Translations under genes and position numbers: made by a program
From: Candidatus Dormiibacterota bacterium
Lineage (GTDB): Bacteria > Chloroflexota > Dormibacteria > Dormibacterales > Dormibacteraceae
Direction of reading: 5' to 3'
NCBI GenBank assembly: GCA_024280995.1
Contig: JAMXLM010000005.1
Coordinates: 1-64,000 of the forward strand
Length of the DNA stretch: 64,000 nt
The notes under the pieces: model-generated
What the model was told of the DNA's origin: nothing
The model's input: only the letters and a program-made list of their open reading frames with translations
Database searches by the model: none
Shown: positions 2,541 through 34,354 of the stretch, piece after piece
Position numbering within the stretch: the first letter of the stretch is position 1
How the letters are laid out: every line of letters starts with the position of its first letter

Positions 2541-5500
2541 GTGGGGAGGGCCCGACGCCTGGCGTCTGTCTTGGCCGCCGCTTTGGTGGTGGCGGCGTTT
2601 TGGGTAGGCCAGTCGCTGCCCGCATCGGCGAAATCGACGCCGCCCCCGCCGCAGCAGACCGCACCCCACCCACACGCAAGCAAGTCGCCGGCTCTGCGAA
2701 ACCTCCAAACGGCGTCGTCGATACCGTGGGTCTGGCAGGACCCGCGACCGGACGGCAATCCCTTTTTCGCGATCAGCTGCCCGACCACGACGTTTTGCTG
2801 GGCCGGCGGGTACAGCCAGCTGGCGCAGACGGTCGACGGCATGACCTGGACAACTCAACCCGCGGTCGAGACCAACGCCATCAGCTGCGCGGATACGACG
2901 CACTGCGTGGCGGTCGGCGACAGCGGGGAGGTGCTGACCTGGAACGGCACTACGTGGTCCGCGCAGGTCATCAACTCGGGCAACTTCCTCTTAGGGGTGA
3001 GCTGCCCCTCGGCCGGCACCTGCTACGCGACCGGCGCCAACGGCTTCATCTACAAGTCAACCGACGGCGGCGCGACCTGGCCCAATCCGGTCAATGTAAC
3101 GGGCTCCCTCGGTTTCCCACCGTTCTTCGCCATCAGCTGCGGTACGACGATGTTCTGCTGGGCGGTCGGACCCACGGGATTGGAAGCCTGGACCAAGGAC
3201 GGAGTGACCTGGAACCTCGGAACCGCCGGCAGTAACGACCTCTACGGGGTCGGATGCTCCGGCACCCTGGGTTGCGTTGCGGTAGGGCTGAACGGCGTCG
3301 TGGTGACCACGACCGACCCGCAGCTCGGTTTTTCCGTGGGTTTTGAGTCGAGTGCCGCCACTCTTGTCGGAGTCAGCTGCCAGTCGGCGCCGTGCTTCGC
3401 AACCGGCGTCGACGGAAGCGCCTATCTGATGCCTAACTTCGCTACGCCGCGGCCGAATTACTTCACTCACGGGTCAACCGGAGAGAACGGCGGCCTGTTC
3501 GCGATCAGCTGTCCGGCCGCGGCCACCTGCTTCGCCGCCGGCGACTTTGGAACCATCTCGACGACGACCGATGGCGGTAACGCTTGGAACCTGACGGGCC
3601 TCCCCGCCAGTCCCACCGGCATAAGCTGCCCAGGCGCCACGACCTGTTTTGCGGTTGGATCCGGCGGCAGTATTCAGCACACGACGGATGGGAGCACCTG
3701 GGGAGCGCAAGCCTCGAACACCGGATCCTTCCTCCGATCCGTCAGCTGCTCGAGCACCCTTCACTGCGTAGCGGTCGGCGACAACGGGACGATCGACGTG
3801 ACCGTGGACGGGTCGACGTGGACCGTCAAGCCGTCCGGCACCACAAACAGCATCTTCTCGGTCAGCTGCGCTTCAGACCTGGTCTGCTATGCAGTCGACG
3901 GCGTCAACGACTACAAATCCACGGACGGCGGATTGACCTGGACCAGTGCGGCGATTACCGGCGCAACGTCGGTGAGCGGCATCAGCTGCCCTTCCATTAC
4001 CACCTGCTTCGCGTCCGAGGCGACGAGTCCCGGCATCGTACTCAAGACGACCGACAGCGGCGCGACGTGGCCTGTGAGTTTCAACGTCGGAAGCGATCCC
4101 AATGCCGGAAGCAACGCGCCGCTCAGGGCTATCAGCTGCAGCTCGACCAGCGAGTGCTACGCGGTCGGCGACTCCGGCCTGATCGCGACGACCACAGACG
4201 GGGCCACTTGGCGCACGGATTTCGCGAATTCAACCGCCAACCTCAGCTCCGTGAACTGCCCGAGCGCCGGCACGTGCTACGCGTCGGCAAACGACGAAAC
4301 GATTCTGCACACCGCGGACTACGGCGCTGACTGGGACATCCAGATGGGCAGCCGCAACTTCTCGTCGGTGAGCTGCCCCTCGGCTGCGGCGTGCTTCGCT
4401 GCTGCGGCCAGCGGCGTCAGCAAGACGACAACATCGGGTGCGGCATGGACCGTGGAGCGCCCTACCGGGACAACGGCGCCAATCACCGCGTTGAGCTGTT
4501 TCGGCTTCAGCAACTGCGTCGCGGCGGCCCAGCACACCGTGCTCGTCTCCCATGACGGCGGAAACACGTGGACCCAGCATGTTCTCGGTACGACCGATCA
4601 GGTGGACTCTGTAAGCTGCCCATCCGCCAACACGTGCTATGGCGTCGGATGGCCCGGCGCCATCTACAAGACGATCGACGGCGGCTCGACCTGGGTGCTG
4701 CAGACGAGCGGCTTCTACGGCTCCGACAACGTGCTGACGTCAGTGAGCTGCCCAGACACGACGGACTGCGTCGCGGTCGGGATCGGAGGCCTTGCGTTCT
4801 CTACGAGCAATGGCAGCGCGTGGGTGCAGGAGTCGACGAATACGCCGAATAGTCTGTTCGGGGTGAGTTGCGCGACCACCAGCGCGTGCGTCGCGACCGG
4901 CAGCGGCGGCGTTGTCACGGTTAGGAGCTCAGGAACGTGGACGGTGCATTCGTCCGGCACCCTCCAGAACCTGGACGCGGTGAAGTGCGCGACGCTGTCG
5001 ATCTGCTACGCGGTGGGCAGGTCAGGCACGGTTCTCACAAGTGCCACGGGTGGCGCGACCTGGACTGCGAAGACCTCAGGCACGACCAACAACCTGCTCG
5101 GCATCGACTGCTCTCAGCCGACGCGGTGCATCGCCGGCGGCGTCGGCGGGACGGCGATCATCACCACCGACGGCAGCACCTGGGTCCCACTGAACATGCC
5201 GACGCCCAACGCTTTCATCGCCATCCAGTTCAAGGACACGGTGCACGTCTGGATGGCAGGCGGAGGCGGCATGATCCTCGCGATCGCGTCGTGCGCCTCG
5301 GCGACAGTGAGCTCGATCGAGACGTCGCCTCAACCAGGCGGCACGACCGTGCACTTCACCGCGACGTCGAGCGGTCCCTTCTGCACGAACCCGCTGTACC
5401 AGTGGTGGGTCTGGTCTCCCGCCACGGGTTACCAGCTGCGTCAGGCGTACAGCACCAGTCCCACATTCCAGCTGAACACGACGGGAATGGCCCCCGGCAC

Positions 5501-27529: not shown

Positions 27530-28906
27530 CTAGATCAGCTCCCTCACGTCCACCAGGTGCCCGGTGATCGCCGCGGCGGCCGCCATCGGCGGCGACATCA
27601 GGTGCGTCCGCCCGCCCGAGCCCTGCCGGCCTTCGAAGTTGCGGTTCGAGGTAGAGGCGCAGCGTTCGCCGGGGGCCAGGATGTCGGGGTTCATGCCCAG
27701 GCACATCGAGCAGCCGGCGTTGCGCCACTCGAACCCAGCCGCCTTGAAGACGGCGTCGAGGCCCTCTTTTTCCGCCGCGAGCTTCACCGAGGTGGAGCCC
27801 GGGACGACCATCGCACGCACCTTGGGGTGAACGTGACGGCCGTGGATCACGCCGGCCGCGGCACGCAGGTCCTCGAGCCGGGCGTTGGTGCACGAGCCGA
27901 TGAACACGCGGTCGATCGCGATGTCGGCCAGCGCGACGCCCGGCTTCAGGTCCATGTAGCGAAGCGCCCGCTCGTCCGTCTCTGAATGCGGCGAGGGCAC
28001 GCGCCCGGTCACCGGCGCCACCTGCGCCGGCGTGGTGCCCCACGTCACGTGGGGTTCGAGCGCCGAGGCGTCGACCTCGATCTCACCGTCGAAGACCGCG
28101 CCGTCATCCGACCTCAGCGACCGCCAGTGGTCGAGGGCCTTCTCCCACGCGGCGCCCGTTGGCGCGTGCGGCTTGCCCTCGACGTAGGCAAATGTCGTTT
28201 CGTCGGGCGCGACCATGCCGGCCTTGGCGCCCCACTCGATCGACATGTTGCAGATCGTCATGCGCCCTTCCATCGACAGGCCGCGGATGGTCGGGCCGCG
28301 GTACTCCACCAGGTGGCCCTGTCCGGCGGACGTCCCGGTGCGGCCGATCAACCCGAGCACGATGTCCTTGGCTGTGACCCCGACCGGCAGGTCGCCCGAA
28401 ACGGTGACCGCCAGGTCGCCCTGGCGCTTCTGCGGAAGGCACTGGGTCGCGAGCACGATCTCGACCTCGGACGTCCCGATGCCGAACGCCAGCGCGCCGA
28501 AGGCACCGTGCGTTGAGGTGTGTGAGTCGCCGCAGACGATCAGCATCCCGGGCTGGGTCAGGCCCAGCTCTGGGCCGATGACGTGGACGATGCCCTGAGC
28601 CCGGCTGCCGATCTGGTGCAGGGCGATGCCCTCGGCGCGGCAGTTCTCGACGAGCACGTCCATCTGTTTGCGAGAAAGCTCGTCGGCCGCTTTGACGCCG
28701 CCGCGCGTAGGCACGTTGTGGTCCATGGTCGCCACGGTCAGGTCCGGCCGGCGGACGTGCCGGCCGGCCATGCGCAGGCCCTCGAACGCCTGCGGCGAGG
28801 TGACCTCGTGGACCAGGTGCAGGTCGACGAACAGCAGGTCCGGCTCGCCGGGCGCTGAACGGACGACGTGGGCGTCCCACAGCTTCTGGGCGAGGGTGCG
28901 TGCCAT
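27530..28906 (-). CDS. leuC: 3-isopropylmalate dehydratase large subunit
   Basis: [15 protein letters not shown] ... [34 protein letters not shown] ... [23 protein letters not shown] ... [33 protein letters not shown]. Start at 28906, not 29104. Confidence 0.95.
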
Positions 28907-28999
28907 AGGGAACGACAACTTTACGCAGCAGATGCTTGAGAAATTTGTGCCCCGCCTACAACCAGGGAGGGAGACTCGCTCGTTAACATCCTCAGCCAC

Positions 29000-29083
29000 A
29001 TGACTCAGTCCCGCGTGCTCGGCCTCGTACTTGTGGGCCTTCTTGGCCTTATTGGCATTCCCTCGGGGGCACGCGCGACCTAG
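29000..29083 (+). CDS. leader peptide of the ilvB operon (27 aa)
   Basis: ATG 29000 to TAG 29081: [27 protein letters not shown]; 6 Leu, 3 Val and 2 Ile, followed directly by an intrinsic terminator and then ilvB. Confidence 0.8.
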
Positions 29084-29132
29084 CAACCGCCAGACAGATC
29101 GCAAAAGCCCCCGACCGAAAGGCGGGGGCTTT
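29064..29132 (+). promoter_or_regulatory. putative transcription attenuator of the ilvB operon (antiterminator segment plus terminator)
   Basis: CGGGGGC at 29064-29070 duplicates the 3' arm of the terminator and can pair with GCCCCCG at 29107-29113, excluding the terminator. Confidence 0.7.
29104..29132 (+). terminator. intrinsic terminator between leader peptide and ilvB
   Basis: AAAGCCCCCG (29104-29113) - accgaaagg - CGGGGGCTTT (29123-29132), 10-bp perfect stem followed by CTTCATTT. Confidence 0.85.
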
Positions 29133-29168
29133 CTTCATTTCCAGAGCAAAAAGGAGCCCGCCAGAAAA

Positions 29169-30851
29169 GTGACCGGAGCCGACATGATCCTCGAGGCGCT
29201 GGAGCGCGAGGGAGTCGAGTACGTCTTCGGCTACCCCGGCGGGGCCAACCTGCCGCTCTATCAGCACCTGCACGAGCACCCGCGCTTGAAGCACATCCTC
29301 GTCCGCCACGAGCAGGGCGCCGCGCACATGGCCGACGGCTACGCGCGAGCGTGCGGAAAGCCGGGCGTCGTTTTCGCCACGTCGGGCCCGGGCGCATTGA
29401 ACCTGGTCACCGGCCTATGCACCGCCTACATGGACTCGGTGCCGATGGTCGCGATCACCGGCCAGGTGGCCAGCACCCAGGTCGGCCGCGACGCGTTCCA
29501 GGAGTCGGACGTCATCGGCGCCACGTCCTCGGTGACCAAGCACAGCTACCTGGTCACGAAGATCGACCAGCTGCCGCGCGTGATCCACGAGGCGTTTCAC
29601 ATCGCCACCACGGGCAGGCCGGGACCGGTGCTGATCGACGTCTGCAAGGACGTGCAGCAGGCCGAGGCCGAGCGGGTCACTCCCGACCGGCTCCAGATCG
29701 CGGGCTACAGGCTCAACGGCCACGTCGACCTCGGCGAGGCAAGCCGAGCGGCGAGGGCACTCGCTGAGGCGGAGCGGCCGGTGATCCTGGCCGGTCACGG
29801 GGTGATCCTCAGCCACGCCGAGCCACAGCTCCAGGAGCTGGCCGAAGCCGCCGCCACGCCGGTAGGGACGACTTTGCTGGGCATCGGCGCCTTCCCGGTC
29901 CGGCATCCGCTGTCCCTGCACATGACCGGGTTCATGGGCACCGGCTGGAACCTCAAAGCCGTCCAGAACGCCGACGTCCTGATGATGGTCGGGATGCGCG
30001 TGGACGACCGCGTCACCGCGCGCCTCGCCGACTTCGCGCCCAGGGTCAAGACCTTCATCCACGTCGACATCGATGGGTCGGAGATGGGCAAGAACGTGCG
30101 CCCTCACATCGAGCTCGTCGCCGACGCCAAGCAGGCTCTGGCCGCGATGACCCCGCACGTCGGCCCGGTGCAGAAGGATCGCGGACGGTGGCTTTCCCAG
30201 ATCGACGCTTGGCGCGAAGAGCACCCGCTGCGCTACAAGCACTCGAACGGCCGGCTTCAGCCGCAGGACGTGCTGCTCGACATGTACCGCCGCGCCGACA
30301 ACCGCGCGATCGTCGTGGCCGACGTCGGCCAGAACCAGATCTGGGCCGCGTTGTGGTGGAACTACGACCGGCCGGGCCTGTTCATCAACTCGGGCGGCGC
30401 GGGCACGATGGGCTTCGCCTTACCCGCTTCGCTTGGCGCGAAGTTCGCGCGACCGGACCTGCCGGTCTGGTGCGTCGCCGGTGAGGGCGGCTTCGTCATG
30501 ACCGCTCAGGAGCTGTCGGTCGCCGTCGAGCACCAGCTCGACGTCAAGATCGTGATCCTCAACAACTTCTCGCTCGGCATGGTCCGGCAGTTCCAGGACG
30601 ATTTCTACGGCGGGGTCCGTTCGCACGTCGACCTGACGCACTCTCCGGACTTCGTAAAGCTCGCCGAGGCGTACGGCCTTCCGGCGCGCCGGGTCGAGAG
30701 GCTGGAGGACGTCGCGCCTGCTCTGGACGCCGCCGAGCGCACGAGAGGACCCTTCCTCGTCGACTTCCGCATCGACCCGGAGGCGAACGTCTACCCGATC
30801 GTCCCGCTCGGCAAGTCGCTCAACGAGTTCTGGGAGGCACCCGAGGCATGA
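29169..30851 (+). CDS. ilvB: acetolactate synthase large subunit
   Basis: [34 protein letters not shown] ... [38 protein letters not shown]. Start set at GTG 29169 with upstream AAGGAG; the ORF track start at 29031 lies inside the leader. Confidence 0.93.
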
Positions 30852-31297
30852 GCCAGATCCGCGTGCTGTCCCTCGAGGTCGAGGACGCGCCGAACACCCT
30901 CACCAAGGTCTCGGGCGCGATCCGCCGCCGCGGCTTTCACGTCCGCGGCATCTCTGTCGGCCCGAGCCGGCACGCGGGGCGTTTTCGCCTGACCCTGCAG
31001 GTCGATCACGGCCACGCCGAGGCCGACCAGGTGCGCAAGCAGCTGGAACGGCTGGTCGAGGTCGTCGAGGTCGAGGACCTCACCGGCGACGAGGTGCACA
31101 GCCGCGAGCTGGTTGTCGCAAACGTCGCAACGTCGGATGTCGACGCGCTGGTCCGGCTCGGCGCCAAAGTCCTGTCCGGCACGACCGTCGAGTTCTCGGG
31201 CGAGCGCGACGAGGTCGGCGCGTTCATCGACGAGCTCCACCGCCACGGAATCGTCGACGTGGCCCGCTCCGGGCCCGTCGTGATGAGGAGAGCCTGA
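30848..31297 (+). CDS. ilvN: acetolactate synthase small subunit
   Basis: 149 aa ACT-domain protein: [38 protein letters not shown] overlap with ilvB. Confidence 0.92.
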
Positions 31298-32289
31298 TGA
31301 AGATCCACTACGAGGTCGACTGCCCACCGCAGCTCGGCGAGCCCGTCGCAATCATCGGCTACGGAAGCCAGGGCCGCGCCCACGCGCTGAACCTGCGCGA
31401 CTCCGGCGAGGACGTCCGGGTCGGCCTTTACCCCGGAAGCAAGTCCATCGAGCGCGTCGAGGCCGACGGCCTGCGCGCGGTGCCGGTGCCCGAGGCCGTC
31501 AGCGAGGCGACGGCGGTCATGGTGCTCACCCCCGACGCGGGCCAGGGCAAGCTCTTCCGCGAGTCGATCGAGGACCACCTGCAGCCGCGATCGCTGCTGC
31601 TGTTCGCGCACGGCTTCTCCATCCACTTCGCCCAGATCGCGCCGAACAAGGACATCGACGTGGCGATGATCGCGCCGAAGGGGCCGGGCCACCTGGTCCG
31701 CAGCACCTACGTCAGCGGCCAGGGCGTGCCCGCCCTGATCGCGGTCCACCAGGACGCCACCGGCAAGGCGTGGCCGCGGGCGCTTGCCTACGCGCGCGCG
31801 CTGGGCGCGGGCCGCGCCGGCATCCTCGAGACCACATTCAAGGAAGAGACGGAGACCGACCTGTTCGGCGAGCAGGCGGTGCTGTGCGGGGGCGTGGCCA
31901 ACCTGGTCAAGTCCGGCTTCGAGACGCTTGTCGACGCCGGGTATCAGCCGGAGCTCGCGTACTTCGAGGTCCTTCACGAGCTGAAGCTCATCGTCGACCT
32001 CATGTACCGCGGCGGACTGGGCTTCATGAGGTACTCGGTCTCCGACACCGCCGAATACGGCGATTACGTGTCGGGGCCGCGAGTCATCGACGACCGTGTG
32101 CGCGAGTCGATGCGCGACGTCCTGCGCGAGATCCAGGACGGCAGCTTCGCCGAGCGGTGGCTCGACGAGAACTCGAACGGCCGCGAGCGATTCGTTGCGA
32201 TGCGGAGGAAGGACGCGGATCACCAGATCGAAAAGGTCGGGCGCGAGCTGCGCTCGATGATGACGTGGTTGGAGCCAGTAGAGAAATGA
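31297..32289 (+). CDS. ilvC: ketol-acid reductoisomerase
   Basis: [34 protein letters not shown] ... [27 protein letters not shown] ... [14 protein letters not shown]. Confidence 0.95.
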
Positions 32290-33545
32290 AAGATTCAAGT
32301 CCGGACCGGGTATTCATCTTCGACACGACGCTGCGCGACGGTGAGCAGTCGCCGGGGTTCCACCTCGACGCGAACTCCAAGCTTCGAATCGCGCGCCAGC
32401 TCGAGAAGCTGGGCGTGGACGTCATCGAGGCCGGTTTCCCGATCTCCTCGCCGGGCGACTTCGAGGCGTGCCGCCGAATCGCGCGCGAGATCCGCGGCGC
32501 GACGATCACCGCGCTTGCCCGGGCGGTGCCCGAGGACATCGATGCGGTCTGGGGCTCGATCAAGGATGCCGAGGACCCGCAGATCCACATCGTTCTCTCC
32601 GTCTCGGACGTGCACATCCAGCGCAAGCTCGGAATGACGCGCGAGCAGGTGTTGAGGCGCGGCGCCGAGATGGTCGCGTACGCGCGCTCCATGTGCGACA
32701 AGGTCGAGTACTCACCCGAGGACGCGGGACGCGCCGACCCGGCCTACCTGGTCGAGACGGTCGAAACGATGATCGGAGCCGGCGCCACGGTGATCAACAT
32801 CCCCGACACGACCGGCTACTGCCTGCCCCATGAGTTCGGTGCGCTGGTGGGTAGGGTCATCAAAGAGGCGCGTGGCAGCGACAAGGCGCTTTTCTCCGTC
32901 CACTGCCACAACGACCTCGGCCTCGCGGTCGCCAACACGCTGGCGGCGATCGAAGCCGGCGCGCGTCGTGTCGAGTGCACGATCAACGGCATTGGCGAGC
33001 GGGCGGGCAACACGTCGCTCGAGGAGGTCGTGATGCTGCTCAAGGTCCGGCAGTCGAAGCTCGGTCTCGAATGCGGCGTCGAGACGACTCAGATCACGCG
33101 CGCCTCACGGCTGGTCTCGGAGCTGACAGGCACGCCCGTGCAGCCGAACAAGGCCGTGGTCGGAGCCAATGCTTTTGCGCATGCGTCGGGCATCCACCAG
33201 GACGGCGTCCTGAAGGACCGGCTGAACTACGAGATCATGAAACCCGAGGACGTCGGTCTCTCAGACTCGAGGATCGTCCTGACGGCGCGGTCGGGCCGTC
33301 ACGCATTCCACCATCGCCTCGACCGGCTCGGCGTGAAGCTGGCCGAGGGCGGAGACGACGCGGCGTGGCAGCGCTTCCTCCAGCTCGCCGACACCAAGAA
33401 AGAGGTCACCGACGAGGACCTGCGCAAGATCGCGGCCATGTCGGAAACCAATGGTCACGTGGGCAACGGCCACCCGCCCGTCACCGACCAGCTGCACGAC
33501 CACAACCACGTGGCCGACGCGATGCGCCATCTGATCTTCGGGTGA
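32286..33545 (+). CDS. leuA: 2-isopropylmalate synthase
   Basis: [52 protein letters not shown] ... [40 protein letters not shown] 32286 overlaps the ilvC stop. Confidence 0.92.
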
Positions 33546-34354
33546 AGGTTGCTTACCAGGGCGAGCCGGGCGCCTACTCGGACGAGGCAGTCTCGGCCGT
33601 CTTCCCGGACGCCCAGGCGGTCGGCTTCGCCACCTTCCGGCTGACCTTCGACGCGCTCACGATGGGCGCCGTCGACGCCGCCGTTCTGCCGGTGGAAAAC
33701 TCGAGCGCCGGCGTCGTCCAGGAGGTCTCCGACCTTCTATGGGAAAGGCCCGGACTGCGCGTGGTGCGCGAGCACGTCCAGCCCGTCCGTCACTGCCTGC
33801 TCGGCTGGCCGGGACCGGTTGAGCGCGCCCTCTCCCACCCGCAGGCGCTGGCCCAGTGCGACCGCTACCTGCATTCGCGCCAGATCCGTCCGGTGGCCTT
33901 CCACGACACGGCAGGCGCCGCCCGCGCGGTGGCCGAGCAGCGCCAGCCGGGGACGGCGGCGATCGCGAGCAGGGCGGCGGCAGCTCGCTACTCCCTGTAC
34001 GTGCTCGCCGAGTCGATCCAGGACGATTCCGAGAACCGGACGCGGTTCGTCGTCATCGAGAAGGGCGACCCCGTCCGGCCCCGCGACGCCATCGCCGGAT
34101 GGAAGGGATCCATTGCGTTCGTGACCGCCCACCGGCCGGGATCGCTGGCGCACGCGCTTGACTGCTTCGCCCGCCGGGGCGTGAACCTCACCCGGCTCGA
34201 CAGCCGCCCGATCATGGGCCGGCCGTTCGAGTACCGGTTCTACCTCGATTTCACGATCAACGGGGACGCTCCCGCGGCCGAAACGGCGTTGAGCGACCTC
34301 GAAGAAGCCAGCGCGGAGATCAAGCTCTTCGGAACCTATCCGGCCGCCACTTAG
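33542..34354 (+). CDS. pheA: prephenate dehydratase
   Basis: [24 protein letters not shown] ... AVLPVENSSAGVVQEVSDLL ... C-terminal ACT domain (HRPGSLAHALDCFARRGVNLTRLDSRPI); GTG overlaps the leuA stop. Confidence 0.9.
   Translation: MKVAYQGEPGAYSDEAVSAVFPDAQAVGFATFRLTFDALTMGAVDAAVLPVENSSAGVVQEVSDLLWERPGLRVVREHVQPVRHCLLGWPGPVERALSHPQALAQCDRYLHSRQIRPVAFHDTAGAARAVAEQRQPGTAAIASRAAAARYSLYVLAESIQDDSENRTRFVVIEKGDPVRPRDAIAGWKGSIAFVTAHRPGSLAHALDCFARRGVNLTRLDSRPIMGRPFEYRFYLDFTINGDAPAAETALSDLEEASAEIKLFGTYPAAT

Follow-up and report, generated by a model that had tools for sequence, protein, structure and literature searches.

A probable leader-peptide attenuator, with predicted leaderless translation, upstream of the ilvBNC-leuA-pheA operon of a Candidatus Dormibacterota bacterium and its relatives

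The DNA considered here belongs to a soil bacterium of a little-studied group, Candidatus Dormibacterota, known here only as a metagenome-assembled genome of 3.0 Mb. Its nearest named relatives are Candidatus Dormibacterota bacteria, some of them deposited under 'Chloroflexi'. Within the window, i.e. the whole stretch of 64,000 nucleotides that was analysed, a short leader ORF and a GC-rich hairpin precede five tightly packed or overlapping genes in the order ilvB-ilvN-ilvC-leuA-pheA (Table 1); this gene content, assigned from the sequence in the original prediction, is borne out by profile matches. The gene leuC is divergent from the operon and starts on the minus strand at 28906. The LeuA protein (32289-33545) is without the C-terminal LeuA_dimer regulatory domain, Pfam giving HMGL-like and HCS_D2 only, so that leucine feedback on this enzyme may be absent and attenuation may bear more of the control.

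Table 1. Positions in the window of the operon genes and of the elements found or predicted upstream of them.
Feature	Position	Strand	Remarks
Dyad TTTGTG-N7-TACAA between divergent leuC and leader	28944..28961	.	candidate operator, putative function
-10 element TAACAT of operon promoter, predicted	28984..28989	+	TANNNT 9-12 nt before leader start in 29/29 family orthologues
Leader peptide ORF ilvL, 27 codons, 11 Leu/Val/Ile	29000..29083	+	ATG...TAG; kept in 29/29 family orthologues
Control codons GTG, CTC, CTC, GTA, CTT, GTG, CTT, CTT, CTT, ATT, ATT	29015..29059	+	stalling frees antiterminator arm at all but the last (folding model)
Strand 2, antiterminator 5' arm UCGGGGGC, within last leader codons	29063..29070	+	pairs with 29107-29114; co-adapted with strand 3 across families
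Inner helix 5' arm: GCGA 29075-29078, CU 29080-29081	29075..29081	+	overlaps leader end and stop codon; from folding; complementary in relatives
Inner helix 3' arm: AG 29096-29097, UCGC 29099-29102	29096..29102	+	AGATCGC nearly invariant in core group
Intrinsic terminator hairpin, strands 3 and 4, 10-bp stem (+2 possible pairs)	29104..29132	+	-22.0 kcal/mol; in all leader-bearing relatives
U-tract TTTCTTCATTT, interrupted	29130..29140	+	read from sequence
Shine-Dalgarno AAAGGAG of ilvB	29150..29156	+	read from sequence
ilvB, acetolactate synthase large subunit, GTG start	29169..30851	+	TIGR00118, E 1.9e-208
ilvN, acetolactate synthase small subunit	30848..31297	+	TIGR00119 over cut-off
ilvC, ketol-acid reductoisomerase	31297..32289	+	TIGR00465
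leuA, 2-isopropylmalate synthase, start approximate	32289..33545	+	NF002086 over cut-off
pheA, prephenate dehydratase, start approximate	33542..34354	+	NF008865 over cut-off, PF00800

The leader had been proposed as a peptide of 27 amino acids with 6 Leu, 3 Val and 2 Ile, followed by an intrinsic terminator with a 10-bp stem at 29104-29132, and both proved exact in all coordinates. Leu, Val and Ile thus take up 41% of the 27 codons, and the terminator hairpin reads AAAGCCCCCG-ACCGAAAGG-CGGGGGCTTT. Several deeper relatives possess longer, unbroken T runs after the hairpin. A scan for consensus promoters and terminators listed nothing at the leader region, because a -35 element is missing and the U-tract is interrupted, and the region folded as a whole shows a stability only modestly above that of shuffled sequences (z = -1.8). 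No known leader family was found in the region by an Rfam search at gathering score, a permissive search returning weak hits far below gathering, and the T-box model (RF00230) had no match in the window. There is no second copy of the attenuator element in the same genome.

To place the leader in an evolutionary context, orthologous ilvB loci were collected from genomes of the host family and of the class, and the DNA upstream of ilvB was compared. The host family contributed 29 distinct (non-identical), complete upstream regions, every one of which contains one leader ORF of 21-29 codons and then a GC-rich hairpin, with a Leu/Val/Ile share of the leader between 27 and 46%. Alignment of orthologous leaders had been proposed beforehand as a check, and it found the leader conserved. 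Among the 20 closest relatives, every gap within the ORF has a length divisible by three (3 nt in 47 cases, 6 nt in one), those 3' of the leader stop being mostly of 1-2 nt, and the ORF therefore has the pattern of a translated one; the stop codon itself varies among TAG, TAA and TGA. The same arrangement precedes ilvB in families f2 and f4, and the 21 regions from these two other families of the class also keep leader, terminator and antiterminator. The leader and the predicted terminator and antiterminator are thus conserved in three families while the sequences of the pairing arms turn over. Our script missed the leader ORF in three loci (L020, L147 and L161), in two of which, L020 and L161, one is visible by eye; in L096, L147 and L154 the 1000 nt ahead of ilvB yielded no terminator. 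In L022, L024 and other f2 and f4 loci that were read, a small ORF (e.g. ...DIALSEAGRNWVRRRHAAEPSHEVRRLAADAAVTASIASAYGTDW) separates the attenuator from ilvB, within the last 350 nt or so before that gene.

Judging by the position of the -10 element, transcription would start at about 28996-29000; no -35 element is recognisable at the operon promoter. A 4-mer resembling a Shine-Dalgarno sequence stands before ilvB in 26/29 of the family relatives and before the leader in none of the 29. Because its start lies 9-12 nt after the -10 box and lacks a Shine-Dalgarno sequence, the leader is probably translated leaderless. The start codon is ATG or GTG in f2, and in f4 it is TTG in 10/10 (L022, L023, L024, L098, L100, L158, L160, L166, L167, L021); TTG, as predicted for the f4 leaders, is an unusual start for a leaderless message. 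Leaderless messages seem to be common in the window, since TANNNT is found 8-12 nt before a possible start in 12/33 confident genes, compared to 1-4 at control offsets.

The divergent leuC also looks leaderless, with TAAAGT 11 nt ahead of its ATG. In the dyad between leuC and the leader (28944-28961), the distance from the start of TTTGT to the -10 hexamer downstream is 39-40 nt in 27/29 family orthologues, and the dyad is a candidate operator of a regulator, possibly for both divergent transcripts. The fixed distance from the -10 element and a promoter without a recognisable -35 would both suit a scheme in which transcription initiation, controlled through this shared dyad, is the main point of regulation and the attenuator a minor layer. 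Such a scheme is compatible with attenuation; as the main control we consider it unlikely, and it leaves the conserved leader, antiterminator and terminator unexplained.

The competing structure on which attenuation would depend was likewise proposed from the sequence, as a pairing of CGGGGGC (29064-29070) with GCCCCCG (29107-29113). Its positions are exact, and the main pairing extends to 8 bp, UCGGGGGC/GCCCCCGA, between 29063-29070 and 29107-29114. Together with an inner helix, this antiterminator is mutually exclusive with the terminator and of about equal stability (-23.0 versus -22.0 kcal/mol). Of 200 shuffled versions of the leader of the window, only 4 reach the pairing strength of the real leader with the terminator arm. 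The inner helix arms vary yet stay complementary, as GCGA/UCGC in the window, GCUGA/UCAGC in L011, AGUCG/CGACU in L014 and CGCGAA/UUCGCG in L135.

In the core group the main arms are CGGGGGC/GCCCCCG, GGGGGC of strand 2 being invariant in 20/20, and shuffle controls gave no support for covariation in the close alignment of this group (A1), where the pairing arms are nearly invariant. A deeper alignment (A2) misplaces the terminator arms, and for this reason duplexes were computed sequence by sequence and arms were swapped between lineages. The arms differ among the families: GGAGcGGGGC with GCCCCCUCC in f2 genomes, CCGGaGGGGC with GCCCCCCGG in f4 genomes, and GGGGGCUGGUC with GACCGGCCCCC in the f4 genome L021. 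With L021 placed in f2 for the grouping, a leader's own arms pair better with each other than with the average arm of other families in 46/50 cases, and a permutation that kept row and column effects, over 11 lineages grouped by hand, gave p = 0.002 for the co-adaptation of the arms. Only 1/11 lineages has its own arm as the top-ranking partner in the swap matrix, since certain long, GC-rich arms form good pairings with any other arm. A conserved protector (anti-antiterminator) helix 1:2 was not found. In the ribosome-free RNA strand 2 is mostly paired upstream, and a protector helix is not claimed since these partners differ between relatives.

The position of the ribosome was then brought into a folding model, run with three footprints of 11-17 nt; its outcome is robust to this choice, moving by one or two codons. 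The branched-chain codons had been placed entirely upstream of the antiterminator arm, and the last of them indeed ends at 29059. Stalling was expected to free the antiterminator, and in the model strands 2 and 3 pair (2:3) ahead of the synthesis of strand 4 at 10 of the 11 Leu/Val/Ile codons. Onward translation was expected to mask it, and a ribosome from about codon 19 onwards covers strand 2 in the model. In a full-length equilibrium model the terminator is favoured at every stall position, narrowly at two of them, and the switch must therefore be kinetic. RNA free of ribosomes likewise adopts the 2:3 pairing in the model while strand 4 is still to be transcribed, so that the outcome in the absence of translation is not clearly predicted.

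These results suggest the following mechanism. Transcription would begin on the leader ATG or a few bases ahead of it, giving a leaderless transcript on which a ribosome would initiate. Undercharging of the tRNA for Leu, Val or Ile would make the ribosome stall on the largely rare control codons (29015-29059), and the arm at 29063-29070, thereby left free, would pair with the 5' arm of the terminator at 29107-29114, aided by the inner helix (29075-29081/29096-29102), and allow RNA polymerase to read on into ilvB. When these amino acids are plentiful, the ribosome would reach the stop codon and cover the 5' arms of both helices, upon which the terminator at 29104-29132 would fold and transcription would end. 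The leader and its RNA switch thus probably shut the pathway down when Leu, Ile and Val are plentiful.

A simpler reading would be that of a constitutive attenuator or a plain intergenic terminator, in which the ORF is a by-product of local composition and no ribosome-dependent switching takes place. The interrupted U-tract and the preference of equilibrium folding for the terminator in the modelled states agree with it. So does a result from Streptomyces coelicolor, where mutation of the candidate ilvB leader codons had no effect and the tests did not fit classical attenuation (PMC1262725), and such anatomy therefore does not guarantee the mechanism. Against this, start codon, frame, stop and Leu/Val/Ile richness are kept in 29/29 family regions and recur in two other families, and the arm inside the ORF changes in step with that of the terminator; neither this nor a conserved ORF would be required for a plain terminator. 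We consider this simpler reading very improbable. The leader-attenuator observation is confirmed and its interpretation as attenuation supported, and a ribosome-mediated transcription attenuator very probably controls ilvBNC-leuA-pheA. New with respect to the original prediction are a probably leaderless start of the leader, a second antiterminator helix, GTA as a rare codon for Val, and the class-wide occurrence of the arrangement.

The choice of codons in the leader bears on the signal to which the attenuator would respond. CTT and ATT had been described as uncommon, and they make up 8.5% of the Leu and 2.1% of the Ile codons in the operon genes, GTA accounting for 1.9% of the Val codons. 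In the 29 family leaders CTT is used for 65/186 Leu codons (35%, versus 4.4% in ilvB of the same genomes), ATT for 30/39 Ile codons (77% versus 1.9%) and GTA for 32/55 Val codons (58% versus 1.1%); the counts come from related sequences and are not independent, which limits the reading of Fisher p-values for this bias. One family uses CTA in the role of the rare Leu codon. In the part of the leaders ahead of strand 2, rare codons account for 48%, 27% and 51% of the codons for Leu, Ile and Val in f1, f2 and f4, where 5-8% would be expected, and for 23%, 2% and 15% of those for other residues, where the expectation is 8-9%. Judged by these frequencies, the bias is seen across the class and the enrichment of rare codons is strongest in Leu/Ile/Val codons.

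It could be argued that the switch is real and that its signal is general translation speed or leaderless initiation (70S availability, growth rate) instead of the charging of Leu, Val and Ile tRNAs. The leaderless start is predicted, leaderless-like genes are frequent in the window at the ratio given above, and masking depends on ribosome position only, all of which would fit. However, three families have preserved both the Leu/Val/Ile content and the use of rare codons for precisely these residues, and the operon makes just Leu, Val and Ile; we regard a general signal of this kind as scarcely credible, and retain tRNA charging as the probable signal.

Among the tRNA genes read in the host are those for Leu (CAG, GAG, TAG, CAA, TAA), Val (GAC, CAC, TAC) and Ile (GAT), and a further tRNA-Ile(TAT) is found in a tRNA array. 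This array of about 19 tRNA genes (L210 5068-7149, corresponding to G000:C44:33467-35548) contains many genes with low scores and specificities that are duplicated elsewhere in the genome, and is perhaps a mobile element or phage array. A published theory explains the codon bias of E. coli attenuators by selective charging of isoacceptors (PMC1183508). GTA may have its own isoacceptor. As ATT and ATC share tRNA-Ile(GAT), isoacceptor charging cannot explain the choice of ATT, for which slow wobble decoding or an RNA constraint would be needed. We tentatively raise the idea, itself rather doubtful, that the attenuator of this class reads the speed of slow synonymous codons (GTA, ATT, CTT/CTA) and not just the amino acid, these codons having been retained chiefly for Leu/Val/Ile in the face of a strong opposite bias of the genome. 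Combined with leaderless initiation including that from TTG, this would amount to a distinct attenuator design, dependent on 5'-end initiation and wobble-slow codons.

Attenuators of the leu, ilvGMEDA and ilvBN operons of E. coli and Salmonella have leaders with a Shine-Dalgarno sequence and a 1:2 pause/protector hairpin. The Dormibacterota leader resembles them in its control codons, in the mutually exclusive antiterminator and terminator and in the choice of rare codons, e.g. the rare control codon CUA of the E. coli leu attenuator (PMC1183508). By contrast, it has no evident Shine-Dalgarno sequence and no conserved 1:2 helix, and its final codons contain the antiterminator arm. Another counterpart is the ilvBNC attenuator of Corynebacterium glutamicum, whose leader peptide IlvL, MTIIRLVVVTARRLP, is leaderless, with the start codon 1 nt from +1 by experiment, and uses CUU (Leu) and GUA (Val) as control codons (PMC11857589, PMC10272879). 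Both systems combine an ilvB operon and a leaderless branched-chain leader with an antiterminator and a terminator, and the CUU and GUA codon types are also enriched in the Dormibacterota leaders. The two differ in phylum and in peptide, the model for C. glutamicum includes an anti-antiterminator hairpin of which no conserved equivalent exists in the Dormibacterota leader, the leaderless start is experimental in the former and only predicted in the latter, and no Rfam match links them. In Streptomyces, where candidate leaders have also been listed (PMC1262725), the ilvL attenuator upstream of ilvBHC encodes the leaderless peptide MRTRILVLGKRVG (PMC8079986). As predicted for the Dormibacterota leader, a short ORF without a 5' leader that contains Leu/Ile/Val codons, and then a terminator, stand ahead of ilvB, but the Streptomyces ORF has 13 codons, compared to 27 in the Dormibacterota leader, and fewer branched-chain codons. 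The Dormibacterota element would work like a classical leader-peptide attenuator, and our searches of the open-licence literature turned up no attenuator of the peptide-leader type from Dormibacterota or Chloroflexota.

A different type of sensor occupies the same place in some relatives. The T-box (RF00230) likewise senses aminoacylation upstream of ilvB, but it binds tRNA directly and without a leader peptide, unlike the Dormibacterota attenuator. At the f3 locus L093 a T-box match (3437-3617, 52 bits, below gathering, E 2e-9) is found upstream of ilvB instead, and one related genus of the class, as identified by this match, carries a predicted T-box in place of the peptide attenuator. In other Chloroflexota a T-box upstream of ilvB matches above gathering in L111 (3221-3449, minus strand) and more weakly in L102 (3359-3616). 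Most other Chloroflexota loci examined have no terminator within 1000 nt upstream of ilvB.

If the reading given here is true, ribosome-mediated attenuation of ilv genes extends to a Dormibacterota/Chloroflexota lineage. With T-boxes at the corresponding position in related genomes, a single class would allow one to trace how two sensors of tRNA charging are exchanged. Finally, the 50 leaders, with their strong amino-acid-specific codon choice, would together with the tRNA genes of the host form a test set for theories of attenuator codons, in which the charging of isoacceptors should not distinguish ATT from ATC.
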